Shown here: positions 48,725-55,812 of the stretch, piece by piece
Position numbering within the stretch: the stretch's first letter is position 1
How the letters are laid out: each line of letters starts with the position of its first letter
Assembly (NCBI GenBank): GCA_014695195.1
Contig: JACJNW010000028.1
Span: 682,001-746,000, forward strand
Direction of reading: 5' to 3'
Origin: Cyanobacteria bacterium FACHB-DQ100
GTDB lineage: Bacteria; Cyanobacteriota; Cyanobacteriia; Leptolyngbyales; Leptolyngbyaceae
Length of the DNA stretch: 64,000 nucleotides
Notes under the pieces: generated by a model
The model's database searches: none
What the model was told of the DNA's origin: nothing
The model's input: the letters and a program-made list of their open reading frames with translations, nothing else
Made by a program: the position numbers and the translations under genes

Positions 48725-49069
48725 ATGACAACAACATCGGTGCAACTACGGGAATTTTCTACTACGGCAACTGCCGCAGCCTCTGATTCCGAGAGCGGAC
48801 TCTGCTCTCTATTCGCTACAATTCCACCGGAGAGAATTGGTCTAAATGGTGAATATGATCATCATGGTTTAGCCAAGCGGGTGTGGCAGGCGCTTAGGGT
48901 TCGCTTTTCTGCTAGAGATCTTGAGAAATTGAGGGTCATGCAGCGAGGAAAAGTCGTTATTTTCCTGGGGAGCGTTGCATCGTTGGAAGTGTTGAAGCAC
49001 TTTGTTTCGATCGCGCGAGAAATCGAAGGCGCGATCGATGTGGAGACGCACGGCGTTCGGATCAAGTAA
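48725..49069 (+). CDS. Hypothetical protein, BON-like end
   Basis: A 114-residue protein. The first 35 residues are polar and probably disordered; the rest (GLAKRVWQALRVRF, RGKVVIFLGSVASLEVLKHF, IEGAIDVETHGV) resembles a BON-type alpha/beta unit that binds phospholipid or a partner protein. No signal peptide. The end overlaps the convergent ureidoglycolate lyase by 8 bp. The BON assignment is a pattern judgement only. Confidence 0.6.
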   Translation: MTTTSVQLREFSTTATAAASDSESGLCSLFATIPPERIGLNGEYDHHGLAKRVWQALRVRFSARDLEKLRVMQRGKVVIFLGSVASLEVLKHFVSIAREIEGAIDVETHGVRIK

Positions 49070-49550
49070 TCTCGAACTCAACACCGTAGTCTAGGCGCAA
49101 ATTGCAAGTATCGTGATCCGCAATGTTGGTATCACTGAGTTCGAGATTGTAGAAATCAACGATCTCATCGTCGAAGTAGGGGCCAGCGTGCCAGGTGCCG
49201 ATCTCTAGTTTGATGAAGCAGTTTCCTGGAATGCGGAAAGCTCTAAGATCCGAGAGCGCTGGACTCACGCTTTCACCTGGAGGCGCAACCACGATCAGCC
49301 ATTCTTTGCCTTCTAGAGAACCGAGGCACTGAGTGCACTGCTGATGGCGCGTGATTTTGTGAAATTTCCGCCCGCGATGCTGGAGTCGCATAATGTAGAA
49401 GCGGGGAATTCCCTCTTCAAGATAGAGCTGAGCATCATCTCGATCGAAGCCTTTCCCGTCGGGTGAGGCTTGAATCAGTTGTCCAAAGGGACGAAAGGCT
49501 TCAGCGGTGATGGGTTGGGCTTGAATTGAGCGAATTGTTGACGGTTGCAT
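49062..49550 (-). CDS. allA: Ureidoglycolate lyase-family protein
   Basis: A 162-residue cupin-fold protein of the AllA family: EAFRPFGQLIQ opening, FHKITRHQQCTQC, LEIGTWHAGPYF with the metal-binding histidine, and FYNLELSDTNIADH at the end. The family releases glyoxylate and urea from ureidoglycolate in purine-derived nitrogen use. No other purine-degradation gene is near, so the substrate could differ. Confidence 0.85.
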   Translation of the reverse strand: MQPSTIRSIQAQPITAEAFRPFGQLIQASPDGKGFDRDDAQLYLEEGIPRFYIMRLQHRGRKFHKITRHQQCTQCLGSLEGKEWLIVVAPPGESVSPALSDLRAFRIPGNCFIKLEIGTWHAGPYFDDEIVDFYNLELSDTNIADHDTCNLRLDYGVEFEIT

Positions 49551-50737: not shown

Positions 50738-51439
50738 TTAGTTTCGATTAATTTGTACCGAATAACAGAGACGATCGCCGCGTGAGATGGATTTACCGTG
50801 TACGATCGCACAATTCCCTTCGATATAAGCAGTGTGCTGATAAACGATGAGCGGATGTCCCAGGGGCACTTCTAATTGCTCACTGGTTTCGTCATCTGCT
50901 TGTGTACATTCAATCACAGCATCAAGCTTCTCTGTAAAAATTCCATGCTTCTCAAGCACGGTGAGGCTGAGTTGCTGCTTAAGATCTTCCGCATAAATCT
51001 CCCCTAGCTCTGGAACAATGTAAGTAATATCAACACAGCCCGGAACCCCATTGAATAGCAATACTTTCTTTTGAAAGTAGGCGATCGACACCGCCAAGAT
51101 TTCCTGAACATCCTGCGGAACGGTAACTAATTCAAACACTAACGTCCGAACTGTGATCGTTACGCCTTGCTGCGCCATATCTGCTTCGAGCAACAATGGA
51201 CTCGATAAAGAATGCGTGACTTTCTGCTGACTGGCGACGAACGCCCCCTTCCCTTGCTGCACGACGACTAAACCCTGCTGCATCAGATTTGCGATCGCTC
51301 GTCTTGCTGTAATCCGGCTGACTTCAAACTCCGACATTAATTGATGCTCACTCGGTAGTTGATCTCCGGGTTTATACTGACCGCTAACCATACGATCGCG
51401 TAGTTGTTTGGAGATTATCGCGTGTAGAGGAGTTCCCAT
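50738..51439 (-). CDS. GntR/HutC-family regulator with UTRA domain
   Basis: A 233-residue regulator. Residues about 8-72 are the winged helix (LRDRMVSGQYKPGDQLPSEH, FEVSRITARRAIANLMQQGL), and about 95-230 the UTRA ligand-binding domain (DITYIVPELGEIYAEDL, then PLIVYQHTAYIE). It is divergent from the desaturase operon across 89 bp, where a perfect 14-bp palindrome lies. It most likely represses that operon and itself until a small ligand binds. Confidence 0.9.
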   Translation of the reverse strand: MGTPLHAIISKQLRDRMVSGQYKPGDQLPSEHQLMSEFEVSRITARRAIANLMQQGLVVVQQGKGAFVASQQKVTHSLSSPLLLEADMAQQGVTITVRTLVFELVTVPQDVQEILAVSIAYFQKKVLLFNGVPGCVDITYIVPELGEIYAEDLKQQLSLTVLEKHGIFTEKLDAVIECTQADDETSEQLEVPLGHPLIVYQHTAYIEGNCAIVHGKSISRGDRLCYSVQINRN

Positions 51440-51488
51440 GATTTAGTAGCATTCATTACAGAGTTTTGGTGATATATTGCTATTCTTG

Positions 51489-51502
51489 CTTGTTATAACA
51501 AG
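51489..51502. promoter_or_regulatory. Perfect 14-bp palindrome, probable GntR operator
   Basis: CTTGTTATAACAAG fits the TGT-N4-ACA core of HutC-type operators. Its centre TATAAC could be a promoter -10 element, so binding would block transcription of the operon starting at 51529. It lies 26 bp before that ATG and 50 bp before the GntR start. Confidence 0.7.
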
Positions 51503-51528
51503 TTCAGCTTAATGGTAGGAAAAAGACG

Positions 51529-52467
51529 ATGACTTCATCCATTTCTGAGTCTAACTTGATTGAATCCGAGTCAAAGCGCTACACACCTCTCAGTAGCGAA
51601 GCTTTGAAAGCGTTGAATACGCGATCGACCCTGAAGGGGCTGCTTCAACTTTTTGGACATTTAGCGATCTTAGGCATTAGCGGTTATCTTTGGGGCACGA
51701 ATTTAGGACACAATTGGGCAATTGCAATTCCCGCCGTGATTGTTTACGGGTTTGGGTTTGCTGCGATGTTTGCTCCAATGCACGAGTGTTCACACCGGAC
51801 TGCATTCGAGAACAACTTGTTGAATGATGTCGTTTGCTGGATCGCAGGTCTCTTATCTTTTTACAATGGTGCGTTCTACCGTCGCTATCACAAATGGCAT
51901 CATCGCTACACCCAACTGATTGACAAAGACCCAGAACTTGGCGATCCGCTTCCTCAAACTTTAGTAGACTATCTCATTACTATGAGCGGTATTACTTGGT
52001 GGTGGGGCAAGCTGAAAACGCATTTTCGCGTTGCTTTGGGACAGTTAGAGGATTATCCCTACATCTCGGAAGAAGCTCGTGCGGGTGTAATGCTTTCAGT
52101 CCGATCGCAGTTAGCCGTGTATGCGATTGCGATCGCGGTTTCAATCTATGCTCATCAGCCTTGGTTTGTCGTCTATTGGGTGCTGCCGTTAGCCGTTGGA
52201 CAGCCGATTCTGCGGATGATTCTGTTGTCGGAACATACCGGATGCACCCATGATGACAATCCGTTTACGAACACTCGATCGACCAAAACCCTATTTCCGC
52301 TTCAGTTTTTGATGTGGAATATGCCCTTTCATGCAGAACACCATCTTTATCCCTCAATTCCGTTTCATCAACTTCCCGCAGCACACCAACAGTTAAGAGA
52401 GCAGTTCACCTTCAAAGATCAAGGCTATGTTGAAGTGAACTACAACTTTGCAAAAGAGCTAGTATGA
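51529..52467 (+). CDS. Fatty acid desaturase-family membrane enzyme
   Basis: A 312-residue di-iron desaturase or hydroxylase. Three histidine boxes are present: HECSHR, HKWHHRY and HAEHHLYP, with about four membrane helices between. The class covers fatty acid desaturases, carotenoid hydroxylases and amine-chain hydroxylases; the clustering with a MetX-like hydrolase and a GlnT enzyme does not match standard lipid desaturases. The start has a GGTAGGA site. Its stop overlaps the next start by 4 bp. Confidence 0.85.
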   Translation: MTSSISESNLIESESKRYTPLSSEALKALNTRSTLKGLLQLFGHLAILGISGYLWGTNLGHNWAIAIPAVIVYGFGFAAMFAPMHECSHRTAFENNLLNDVVCWIAGLLSFYNGAFYRRYHKWHHRYTQLIDKDPELGDPLPQTLVDYLITMSGITWWWGKLKTHFRVALGQLEDYPYISEEARAGVMLSVRSQLAVYAIAIAVSIYAHQPWFVVYWVLPLAVGQPILRMILLSEHTGCTHDDNPFTNTRSTKTLFPLQFLMWNMPFHAEHHLYPSIPFHQLPAAHQQLREQFTFKDQGYVEVNYNFAKELV

Positions 52468-53483
52468 CCCAATCTGCAAGTTGTTTTACGCTGAAAAACT
52501 TCCCGTTGTACTGTGGTGCAACCTTGCCCGAAGCGCAGATCGTCTATCAAACCTACGGGACGTTGAACCACGATCGTACCAATGCCATTCTCTACCCCAC
52601 TTCATACGGAGCGCAGCACACCGATATCGATTGGTTAATCCGCCCCGACGGAATCTTAGATCCAAGCGAATGGTTCATTATCATTCCGAATATGCTGGGC
52701 AATGGTCTATCAACCTCGCCCAGCAATAGTGATGTTGGTTTAGAAGAACAAGGCTTTTGGTTTAGTCACTTTGACAATGTTCGTGCACAGCAACAGCTAC
52801 TTCAGGAATTCTTTCAGATTGAACAACTTGCCCTGATCTATGGTTGGTCAATGGGCGCACAGCAGGCGTACCACTGGGGAGCGCTTTATCCCGATCGTGT
52901 GTTACGCATTGCTGCCCTCTGCGGTACGGCTCGAACCACCGATCACAATCGCATCTTTCTGCAAAGCTTACGAACTGCACTGACGGCTGACCCAGCTTGG
53001 ACAGGAACGCGATTTGAAACAGTGCCCGATCGTGGATTTCGAGCCTTTGCCCGCATTTATGCAAGTTGGGCGGCTTCCCAGGCTTTCTATCGAGAGGGTT
53101 GCTACTATCAGCTTGGATATAGTTCGCTGGAGGACTACATCACGCGATTTTGGGAAATGAACTACCGCAAGCGCAACCCGCACAATCTTTTAGCCATGAT
53201 TGATACTTGGCTGCATTGCGATGTCAGCGACAATCCAATCTACCAGGGAAATTACCTTGCGGCGATGAGTGCGATTCAGGCAAAAACATTTGTAATGCCT
53301 GCAACAACAGATTTGTACTTTACACCGGAAGATTGTGCAGCAGAAGCTGCTCTCTTGTCGAATGCAGAATATTATGCAATCGACTCGATCTGGGGTCATC
53401 GAGCGGGCAACCCCTATGACAATCCCAACGACGCAGCCTTTATCCGATCGCATATTCAAACCCTACTCCAGCACTCATTATGA
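52464..53483 (+). CDS. MetX-like alpha/beta hydrolase
   Basis: A 339-residue enzyme of the homoserine O-acyltransferase fold: QTYGTLNHDRTNAILYPTS opening, the nucleophile in GWSMGAQQ, the acid in ATTDLYFTPED and the histidine in IWGHRAGNP. Many such homologues are hydrolases or acyltransferases of other small molecules; the acyl-homoserine site cannot be confirmed. It overlaps the desaturase and the GlnT gene by 4 bp on each side, so the three are translated together. Confidence 0.85.
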   Translation: MTQSASCFTLKNFPLYCGATLPEAQIVYQTYGTLNHDRTNAILYPTSYGAQHTDIDWLIRPDGILDPSEWFIIIPNMLGNGLSTSPSNSDVGLEEQGFWFSHFDNVRAQQQLLQEFFQIEQLALIYGWSMGAQQAYHWGALYPDRVLRIAALCGTARTTDHNRIFLQSLRTALTADPAWTGTRFETVPDRGFRAFARIYASWAASQAFYREGCYYQLGYSSLEDYITRFWEMNYRKRNPHNLLAMIDTWLHCDVSDNPIYQGNYLAAMSAIQAKTFVMPATTDLYFTPEDCAAEAALLSNAEYYAIDSIWGHRAGNPYDNPNDAAFIRSHIQTLLQHSL

Positions 53484-54787
53484 CGACGCTTTCCCAAATC
53501 GCTCAATCTCAAGGGATTCGCTACTTTCTGATTTCGTTTACGGATTTGTTTGGGGTGGCGCGATCGAAGCTCGTTCCGACTGAAAGCATTGATCAAATGG
53601 CAATCAGCGGAGCCGGATTTGCAGGCTTTGCCGCTTGGTTAGACATGACTCCCGCAGATCCAGATATTTTAGCCATTCCCGATCCATCCAGCTTAATTCA
53701 ACTGCCTTGGCAACCCGAAGTGGCTTGGTTAGCTGCGGATTTGCACACCATTACCGGAGAGCCTTTAGAGCAAGCGCCGCGTGTTGTTTTAAAGCGAGTT
53801 CTACAACAGGCACAAGACCTCGGATACCGAGTGCGAACGGGCGTAGAATGCGAGTATTTCTTGCTCAGTCCAGAGGGTGAACAGATTGCAGATGGGCGCG
53901 ATCGCCAAAGCAAGCCTTGTTACGATCAACAGTCTTTAATGCGTCAATATGAGGTCATTCGCGAAATCTGCGATGCGATGTTAGGACTCGGATGGGGCGC
54001 ATATCAGAATGATCACGAAGACGGAAACGGGCAGTTCGAGATGAACTGGATGTATGCGGATGCGTTAGTGACGGCAGATCGACAAGCGTTCTTCAAATAC
54101 ATGGTCAAATCGATCGCAGAAAAGCATGGACTCCGAGCCACTTTCATGCCAAAACCGTTCGCCCATCTTACCGGGAATGGTTGCCACACCCATGTTTCAC
54201 TCTGGGACAATGCCGGACAGGAAAATCTCTTCTACGACCCGCAAGGCGAGTTAGGACTGTCCCAACTCGGTTATCAATTCATCGCGGGTGTGCTGCATTC
54301 GGCTGAAGCCCTCTGCGCCATCACGAATCCAACCGTCAACTCTTACAAACGCATTAATGCACCTGTCACACTCTCCGGTGCAACTTGGTCTCCGAACACA
54401 GCGAGCTACAGTGGCAACAATCGCACACATACGATTCGCATTCCCGACGCTGGACGCTTTGAATTCCGTTTAGCCGATGGTGCAGCGAATCCTTATCTAT
54501 TACCAGCCGCATTAATTGCAGCCGGATTAGATGGCATCGTTCAAAAACGTGATCCGGGCGTTAGACGCGATAACAATAGCTATACTGATCCGCTACCCGT
54601 GGGTGAAGCAACACCGTTACCTAAGAATCTACTCGACGCTCTGCGGTGTTTAGCATCGAATGAAATGATTACTCGATCGCTGGGTAAACCATTCGCCACT
54701 GCTTATCTCAAGCTCAAACACCAAGAATGGAATCAATTTACGAGTTGCGTCACGCCTTGGGAACTGGAAAACACTTTAGATTGCTAA
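53480..54787 (+). CDS. glnT: Glutamine synthetase-like protein, GlnT type
   Basis: A 435-residue glutamine synthetase-fold ligase. It has VECEYFLLS (metal glutamates), NDHEDGNGQFEMNWMYADAL, FMPKPFAHLTGNGCHTHVSL and GRFEFRLADGAANPYL boxes. The type III, GlnT-like branch often joins glutamate to amines other than ammonia (such as methylamine or ethanolamine). In this operon it could make or use a gamma-glutamyl amide. Last of the three 4-bp-overlapping genes. Confidence 0.85.
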   Translation: MTTLSQIAQSQGIRYFLISFTDLFGVARSKLVPTESIDQMAISGAGFAGFAAWLDMTPADPDILAIPDPSSLIQLPWQPEVAWLAADLHTITGEPLEQAPRVVLKRVLQQAQDLGYRVRTGVECEYFLLSPEGEQIADGRDRQSKPCYDQQSLMRQYEVIREICDAMLGLGWGAYQNDHEDGNGQFEMNWMYADALVTADRQAFFKYMVKSIAEKHGLRATFMPKPFAHLTGNGCHTHVSLWDNAGQENLFYDPQGELGLSQLGYQFIAGVLHSAEALCAITNPTVNSYKRINAPVTLSGATWSPNTASYSGNNRTHTIRIPDAGRFEFRLADGAANPYLLPAALIAAGLDGIVQKRDPGVRRDNNSYTDPLPVGEATPLPKNLLDALRCLASNEMITRSLGKPFATAYLKLKHQEWNQFTSCVTPWELENTLDC

Positions 54788-54822
54788 TTGCATTGATTGG
54801 GGCCAGCTTTTATCTGACCCTT

Positions 54823-55812
54823 TTATGTTTGCATCGAAATCAGCGTCTTCAAATCTTCAATCAGGCTGGTGAAAAATCTTGCTGCATCGACTTCGGTGGC
54901 AACCCAAGCATTTGCAGGTTGCTTTGCAAGATTACGATCGTCGATCAATGTTTGTCCTCGTGTCCATTCTCCCCGCGTTTCGATCTGCACTCTTGCCCGT
55001 TTCCACATCATTGTTTCTGGGTAAAACAAGTACCCTAGAGTTGCCGCATCATGCACAAGAAACCCTGAGATTCCATTTGTTTCTCGATACTCTAAGGCAG
55101 TACCAATCATGAACTCACAAAGACTGATCAAAAATTGTGCTAATTCACTGTGTGGATTGCTTTGAACGATCGACTGTGCCACTTCTCTCGTAAAGATCAG
55201 TCGTCGCGTAATATCGAGCGGAGTGATCACCAAATCACAACGACTATTCAGCACAATCTCTGCTGCTTCTGGATCAAACCAGACATTAAATTCTGCATGA
55301 GAAGTAATGTTGCCGGGACAGCTAAATGCACCGCCCATGATGATAATTTCCTTTGCTTTTCTGAGAACACCGGAGGCTTTTTTCTCTGCGGCTGCGAGAT
55401 TTGTGAGTGGCGCGATCGCGACGATCGTAATTTCCCCAGGCATCGCATTCAATCGATCAATTAGAAGATCATCAGAGTGCCGAGCCATTTCATAGCTGTG
55501 AATCGCATCGGGAAGTTGCGAGGATAAATTACCCATGCCATCGTTACCGTGAATGTGTGAAGCATCATTGGGGGAATGAGCGATCGTAACTCCCCGCCCC
55601 ACTTCCACCTCTGCCAATCCCCCTAAGCCTAGAATTCGACTTGCACTAGAAAATGTCTTTTCAGTCGAGACATTGCCGCCTGCAGTCGTGACCGCAATCA
55701 ATTCTGCTAAACCTTGTTTCGCGAAACTTTGCAGCCAAAGCAGCACAAAAATATCATCGCCACCCGGATCGGTATCGAGAATGATTTTGGGAATGTTTGA
55801 AGATACGGGCAT
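54823..55812 (-). CDS. Nucleoside hydrolase (IunH family)
   Basis: A 329-residue inosine-uridine preferring nucleoside hydrolase. LDTDPGGDD is the calcium and ribose motif; GRGVTIAH, GNDGMGNL and HAEFNVWFDPEAAEIV are family boxes. It cleaves N-glycosidic bonds of nucleosides in the cytoplasm; the exact base is unclear. It converges with the GlnT operon 35 bp away, perhaps by chance. Confidence 0.9.
   Translation of the reverse strand: MPVSSNIPKIILDTDPGGDDIFVLLWLQSFAKQGLAELIAVTTAGGNVSTEKTFSSASRILGLGGLAEVEVGRGVTIAHSPNDASHIHGNDGMGNLSSQLPDAIHSYEMARHSDDLLIDRLNAMPGEITIVAIAPLTNLAAAEKKASGVLRKAKEIIIMGGAFSCPGNITSHAEFNVWFDPEAAEIVLNSRCDLVITPLDITRRLIFTREVAQSIVQSNPHSELAQFLISLCEFMIGTALEYRETNGISGFLVHDAATLGYLFYPETMMWKRARVQIETRGEWTRGQTLIDDRNLAKQPANAWVATEVDAARFFTSLIEDLKTLISMQT

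Follow-up and report, generated by a model that had tools for sequence, protein, structure and literature searches.

A 64,000-nucleotide stretch of the genome of Cyanobacteria bacterium FACHB-DQ100 (the window; G000:C28:682001-746000 in a 5.5-Mb genome) carries three consecutive enzyme genes, which encode a membrane di-iron protein of the fatty acid desaturase family (Des), a MetX-like alpha/beta hydrolase (MetX), and a ligase of the gamma-glutamylmethylamide synthetase type (GlnT). The conserved unit is real, and it is GntR-controlled in part of its range. Judged by its sequence, the operon is a candidate variant of gamma-glutamyl amine use. We favor, with confidence that falls a little short of even, an O2-dependent route by which nitrogen would be gained from methylamine or another short alkylamine resembling it.

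The three enzymes were sought in 58 relatives, with orthologue thresholds chosen after the lists had been seen (at least 54% for Des, 67% for MetX, and 70% for GlnT). Orthologous Des and MetX occurred in the identical 25 relatives, and within the 58, GlnT of at least 70% was confined to 23 of these (Fisher tests, 6e-17 and 3e-14, not corrected for kinship). With a raw cut-off of E 1e-60, 26 genomes had Des and 26 had MetX. The two sets differed by G053, which has a 41% Des, and G036, which has a 47% MetX. Both genomes contain MgsC of the N-methylglutamate pathway, and these two proteins were set aside as paralogues, as was a second, 49% MetX in G019. The genes were contiguous in 18 of the 25 relatives and cut by a contig end in two (G003 and G023). 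Four relatives (G038, G045, G046, and G057) had GlnT far from Des-MetX, and in G037 Des and MetX were split between two contigs and the only GlnT was a 51% one. An earlier sequence-only reading of the window had proposed that the three enzymes belong together and had named scattering in close relatives as an observation that would count against it. Within the genus no scattering was seen, since the genes were contiguous in six of seven congeners and the seventh, G003, was the one cut at a contig end; scattering did appear in the four more distant relatives. Because the genes co-occur even where scattered, one functional unit is supported.

A wider survey used the best 80 of 253 places encoding Des relatives in a scan of genome contigs, nearly all of them titled cyanobacteria. 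MetX was present at 43 of these 80 loci, and GlnT at 25 of the 43; a further GlnT fragment lay at a contig end in L034, and two loci (L108 and L110) had GlnT without MetX. No other gene recurred beside the three enzymes in most of the 80 locus maps. Fifty-five of the loci were missing MetX, a whole GlnT, or both; 50 of these entered the follow-up, in which 49 genomes were searched. MetX was found in 19 of the 49 and GlnT of at least 68% in 15, of which 14 also had MetX (the exception being G226). Five more genomes had a 49-53% GlnT, with MetX in G206, G230, and G243 and without it in G219 and G221. Sixteen of the searched genomes had a Des-MetX locus without a whole GlnT, and 12 of them encoded an orthologous GlnT elsewhere, with a 49-53% GlnT in two. 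In G195 and G197, Des stood alone at its locus and MetX and GlnT lay together on another contig. Finally, in a sample of 146 genomes from the phylum, GlnT (at least 69%) and MetX were found in the same six genomes, and Des in these six plus four; the sample shares genomes with the 58 relatives, three of the six GlnT-MetX genomes being among those shared.

In the window, the divergent regulator, the palindrome, the three enzyme genes with their 4-bp overlaps (ATGA at both the Des/MetX and MetX/GlnT junctions), and the convergent nucleoside hydrolase all lie where the earlier reading had placed them:

50738-51439, minus strand: GntR/UTRA (HutC-like) regulator, 233 aa (PF00392 and UTRA PF07702), with a divergent relative at 15 of 80 Des loci
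51489-51502, no strand: perfect CTTGTTATAACAAG palindrome, probable GntR operator, its core TTGTTATAACAA kept at GntR loci
51529-52467, plus strand: Des, membrane di-iron FA_desaturase-family enzyme, 312 aa (PF00487; AlphaFold model)
51781-51795, plus strand: Des His box 1 (H85, H89)
51889-51903, plus strand: Des His box 2 (H121, H124, H125)
52330-52344, plus strand: Des His box 3 (H268, H271, H272)
52464-53483, plus strand: MetX-like alpha/beta hydrolase, PRK07581 subfamily, 339 aa (Abhydrolase_1, NCBIfam PRK07581)
53480-54787, plus strand: GlnT, gamma-glutamylmethylamide synthetase-type ligase, 435 aa (Gln-synt_C, TIGR03105, RhGmaS 7cql)
54002-54055, plus strand: GlnT active-site stretch, residues 175-192, with the equivalents of RhGmaS D177 and E186 (alignment to RhGmaS)
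54823-55812, minus strand: nucleoside hydrolase, convergent neighbor (IU_nuc_hydro PF01156)

Judged by Des, the closest named relatives are cyanobacteria FACHB-63 (96%) and Phormidium tanganyikae (86%).

GlnT is the best-characterized member of the unit. It scored 680.7 bits against TIGR03105, above the curated cut-off of 469.6, and its best solved relative was RhGmaS (7cql; E 1.2e-187). All RhGmaS residues checked are retained, namely, the catalytic D177, E186, and R312 and the amine-site K30, Y147, Q175, E179, and N188 (roles as assigned in PMC7948447). In the alignment to RhGmaS, alanine replaces Asp50 of the ammonium site of glutamine synthetase, and tryptophan replaces the glutamate of its flap. 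Thirteen positions checked were identical in all 27 Des-linked GlnT rows, apart from a gap at K30 in one; the comparison left out the 31-33% paralogue of L069 and the fragments of L034 and L110. The score against the GGputSyn model was 267.7 bits, below the cut-off of 650. In the tree, two mgs-linked rows from alphaproteobacteria clustered with the Des-linked rows (support, 99), which were separate from all seven mgs-linked cyanobacterial rows tested; support for a branch with the Des-linked rows alone on one side was only 71. Both alphaproteobacterial relatives looked at adjoin mgsABC-type genes. The earlier assignment of GlnT as a glutamate-amine ligase is thus upheld by the TIGR03105 match and the conserved RhGmaS residues, and a ligase giving gamma-glutamylmethylamide from methylamine is well supported by sequence.

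In the N-methylglutamate pathway, a GmaS-type ligase is followed by MgsABC and N-methylglutamate (NMG) dehydrogenase. We searched for MgsC, one of the subunits of N-methylglutamate synthase, with a query from a Rhizobium cluster that also contains GlnT. MgsC (62-69%) was found in 11 of the 58 relatives, all of them outside the 25 Des-MetX genomes (Fisher test, 8.5e-4, not corrected for kinship); a second, 39% match in G040 was set aside as a paralogue. It was likewise present in two of the 146 phylum-sample genomes, neither of them among the six with GlnT and MetX. In the window's own genome no MgsC was found, the only two matches being 31% ones in frames of 1541 (GltS-sized) and 1563 residues. 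Ten of the 11 MgsC loci (L146-L156) had MgsA and MgsB beside MgsC, with SoxA-like genes in nine, SoxB-like genes in six, GmaS-type genes in seven, and XRE-type genes in four; the remaining locus, L153, is an 8-kb contig with MgsC only. Because genomes with the unit lack MgsC, the product of the ligase would need another outlet.

The three histidine boxes of Des are invariant across 40 aligned sequences. The top structure matches listed for its AlphaFold model (mean pLDDT, 89.4) were two chains of the chloroplast FtsHi complex, with Z scores of 22.4 and 24.5. Among the matches listed, the nearest enzyme fold appears to be that of AlkB (Z 12.5-13.0 over 268-270 residues at 14-15% identity, in a range below about 13 where Z can be unspecific for helical folds); stearoyl-CoA desaturase scored lower, at Z 6.6. 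Against the DesA and DesB models, Des reached 42.1 and 36.7 bits, with a cut-off of 500, and in the tree it stood apart, on long branches, from six family members of its own genome. A lipid desaturase was rejected on the model scores, and the standard lipid enzyme that the sequence-only reading had named as a possible refutation is not borne out by the scores, the tree, or the fold. The weakly nearest NCBIfam model was GntB, a hydroxylase of the guanitoxin pathway (NF041365, 59.2 bits, below the cut-off of 380). Among the matches listed (40 of 283 records), the plasmid relatives of Des included many rhizobial proteins of about 29%, one annotated MocD-like; a rhizopine (MocD) role was set aside on this identity. 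In Cupriavidus, genes for a flavin adenine dinucleotide (FAD) oxidoreductase and a rubredoxin lie about 2.3-3.5 kb from Des and MetX, which fits a monooxygenase. Separately, in eight Nostoc-type loci (L058, L068, L072, L074, L085, L087, L092, and L102), Des is followed not by MetX but by a gene of cluster c5, which by eye resembles another membrane hydroxylase.

MetX scored 489.7 bits against NCBIfam PRK07581 (NF005757), for which the cut-off is 332. The models of true homoserine acyltransferases gave 111.7, 107, 84.7, and 70.9 bits with cut-offs of 500, 331, 560, and 475, respectively, and this identity was rejected. A probable catalytic triad assigned by eye (S129, D283, and H312) does not vary across 30 aligned sequences, of which six are proteobacterial. 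The nearest solved relatives, 5e4y and 5d6o, are labeled homoserine O-acetyltransferase in the PDB; we take them to be the acetyl esterases MekB and CgHle, names for which a literature search gave no confirmation. No MetX relatives were found in viral contigs. In three Pleurocapsales-type loci (L043:9107-9376, L049, and L071), a small gene (about 90 aa, cluster c26) lies on the opposite strand between Des and MetX.

The regulator of the window has both a GntR DNA-binding and a UTRA domain. Its earlier description as HutC-type holds at the level of the subfamily and not for HutC itself: it scored 91.6 bits against TIGR02018, with a cut-off of 220, and a histidine-utilization repressor was rejected on this basis. 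The only match to CTTGTTATAACAAG in the 64 kb at up to two mismatches is the one at 51489-51502 (shuffled sequences gave a mean of 0.21 matches, and at least one in 19 of 100). Seventy-nine of the 80 Des loci had enough upstream sequence for the core TTGTTATAACAA to be counted. At up to one mismatch, it was present in 14 of 15 loci with GntR, versus 1 of 64 loci without GntR and 7 of 1,580 base shuffles. The GntR proteins of the 15 loci range from 96% down to 50% identity, and the loci are not independent because some are close relatives. The palindrome between the regulator and Des, which the earlier reading had pointed out, is very probably the GntR operator, judging from this conservation. 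GntR control itself holds in the window and not as a general feature, GntR being found at only 15 of 80 Des loci, 12 of which have MetX. In three others (L051, L075, and L106), an XRE-type gene with a second half that is cupin-like by eye takes the place of GntR, and the one tested, that of L051, shares 46% identity with the regulator that adjoins mgsABC-glnT in Rhizobium.

These parts would fit together as follows. GlnT would use ATP to join the amine to glutamate, giving gamma-glutamylmethylamide, a step well supported by sequence. We infer that Des and MetX act on this product. Des, whose fold appears AlkB-like and which is probably fed by ferredoxin, would hydroxylate the N-methyl carbon, producing a carbinolamide. 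Amides of this N-hydroxymethyl kind are stable enough that their cleavage calls for an enzyme, and the MetX-like serine hydrolase would split the carbinolamide into glutamine and formaldehyde, or into glutamate, ammonia, and formaldehyde. In the window and at about a fifth of the Des loci, GntR bound at CTTGTTATAACAAG would repress the unit until the amine or a product is present; the operator is the supported part of this step, and repression and the ligand are conjectural. The unit would thereby stand in for N-methylglutamate synthase and dehydrogenase, with a ligase-oxidase-hydrolase logic like that of the Puu putrescine pathway. The earlier reading had the operon either make or break a gamma-glutamylated molecule; a gamma-glutamylated intermediate is retained here, and the function is most likely catabolic, with nitrogen drawn from an amine that is most likely methylamine. 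With more hesitation than for amine use as such, we consider it possible that this constitutes a third methylamine route besides direct oxidation and N-methylglutamate, with di-iron O2-dependent demethylation, MetX-fold cleavage of a carbinolamide, and glutamine formed in one pass. Theanine, the ethyl analogue, is reportedly consumed by Synechocystis, which can draw nitrogen from it (PMC12588301), and plain hydrolysis through other enzymes is thus a possibility too.

Several observations weigh against methylamine use by the three enzymes together. In one Nostocales-type clade of Des, 30 genomes were searched, and all but one (G228) lacked MetX. Of these 29 genomes, 27 also lacked an orthologous GlnT, two of the 27 having a 53% GlnT; the exceptions were G226, with a whole GlnT, and G227, with a contig-end fragment (L110) below the search threshold. 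The 146-genome sample adds four genomes with Des only. Therefore, Des works or persists without its partners in these genomes. G228 has Des and MetX and no GmaS-like match, as does G231, where the contig stops just past MetX, and G196, of a Pleurocapsa-type clade, has Des and GntR with neither partner. A Nostoc plasmid (L119) carries MetX-GlnT without Des nearby, whereas plasmids of Cupriavidus (L112) and Paroceanicella (L113) pair Des with MetX and have no GlnT within about 12 kb. MetX relatives (42-50%) are found in clusters with AmiC, ANTAR, amidase, and urea-type transporter genes and in formamidase clusters. Because of these clusters and the Des-MetX plasmids without GlnT, the substrate of MetX may be an ordinary amide or ester. 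A second GlnT-like gene (45-47%) is present in 8 of the 25 Des-MetX genomes (G001-G005, G024, G029, and G046). The exclusion of MgsC may partly reflect kinship, and within the 25 genomes the search for later steps of that pathway covered MgsC alone, the SoxA- and SoxB-like queries having been run on fetched loci only.

The plasmids and the amide-use clusters speak for an upstream role, in which Des and MetX would hydroxylate and hydrolyze an N-methylated amide, ester, or carbamate and GlnT would capture the methylamine released; the presumed acetyl esterases 5e4y and 5d6o point the same way. However, gamma-glutamylmethylamide would then be left without a known onward route, given MgsC in 0 of 25 genomes, and no transporter gene recurred beside the operon in the 80 locus maps, in which neighbors are mostly not annotated. 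We regard this order of events as rather unlikely. That the operon turns a small amine into a gamma-glutamylated, oxidized small molecule, such as a metabolite, signal, or osmolyte, and so builds rather than breaks the compound, we judge improbable: the GmaS product would accumulate without a catabolic enzyme, and GntB is weakly the nearest model to Des, but no further gene recurs next to the three at most loci, and amine use is indicated both by the MgsC exclusion and by the related XRE regulator. It is quite improbable that the amine is another primary amine, such as ethylamine, propylamine, or a longer one, with Des hydroxylating the carbon next to the nitrogen and the matching aldehyde being released. 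RhGmaS does take ethylamine and propylamine besides methylamine (PMC7948447), but the amine-site residues of GlnT equal those of this methylamine-preferring enzyme, and two alphaproteobacterial relatives lie beside mgsABC-type genes. Hardly credible is an ordinary lipid desaturase with an incidental MetX/GlnT neighborhood, for which PF00487 membership and the 27 searched Nostocales-type genomes with Des and without MetX or orthologous GlnT can be cited, since the DesA/DesB scores, the position of Des in the tree, and its fold all oppose it and orthologous MetX never occurred without Des in the 58 relatives.

A plasmid of Rhodobacteraceae M382 (L114) carries, within 25 kb, a Des relative (30-33%) with a ferredoxin, a MetX relative (41%), a glutamine synthetase-family protein (28%), an agmatinase, and a guanidino-acid decarboxylase. 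This cluster is perhaps a guanidino-compound version of the unit; a guanidine or arginine role was considered and is kept as a lead.

The nucleoside hydrolase faces the end of the operon, as had been described, and is not a conserved member. It probably lies outside the conserved unit because outside the window's genome it adjoins the Des operon in close relatives only (L002-L006, L032, and L033). Two other genes with a possible purine connection were seen upstream of Des: an amidohydrolase that is guanine-deaminase-like by eye (L038:5395-6717) and a PNP_UDP_1 phosphorylase-superfamily gene (L057:6773-7642). With the window's nucleoside hydrolase these make three scattered cases, and a purine link was rejected as not conserved. 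A ureidoglycolate-lyase-family gene (49062-49550, minus strand; PF04115, 53.4 bits) lies near the operon. Sigma-70-like and terminator-like sites were no more frequent than in shuffled sequence.

Taken as a whole, the earlier interpretation is partly supported. Its statement that the combination matches no recognized pathway agrees with our searches of the open-licence literature, in which no listed title or abstract opening described this operon or such a pathway; an unlisted description is possible. If the proposal is true, many cyanobacteria would gain nitrogen from methylamine without N-methylglutamate, the presence of gmaS would have a different meaning as a sign that methylamine is used, and a pair of enzymes able to strip N-methyl groups from amides would be added to those known. 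The palindrome would also give a possible amine-responsive switch of cyanobacteria a defined GntR operator.

The unit resembles several known systems in part. It shares with the N-methylglutamate pathway a GmaS-type ligase as the first step and, beside three Des loci, a related XRE regulator; in contrast, MgsC was not found in the window's genome, and Des and MetX adjoin GlnT instead. The putrescine pathway of PuuA, PuuB, and PuuD likewise combines a gamma-glutamyl ligase, an oxidizing enzyme, and a hydrolase, but here the ligase is of a different subfamily, a membrane di-iron enzyme stands in place of the flavin oxidase, and a serine alpha/beta hydrolase in place of the amidotransferase-type hydrolase. 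On the Cupriavidus and Paroceanicella plasmids, a Des relative (33-37%) and a MetX relative (45-48%) are encoded side by side on one strand, although in reversed order, with an iron alcohol dehydrogenase alongside and without the nearby GlnT. Lastly, peptide amidation by PHM and PAL also consists of hydroxylation beside an amide nitrogen followed by enzymic cleavage of a stable carbinolamide; the protein families and substrates differ, and the analogy is one of mechanism only.

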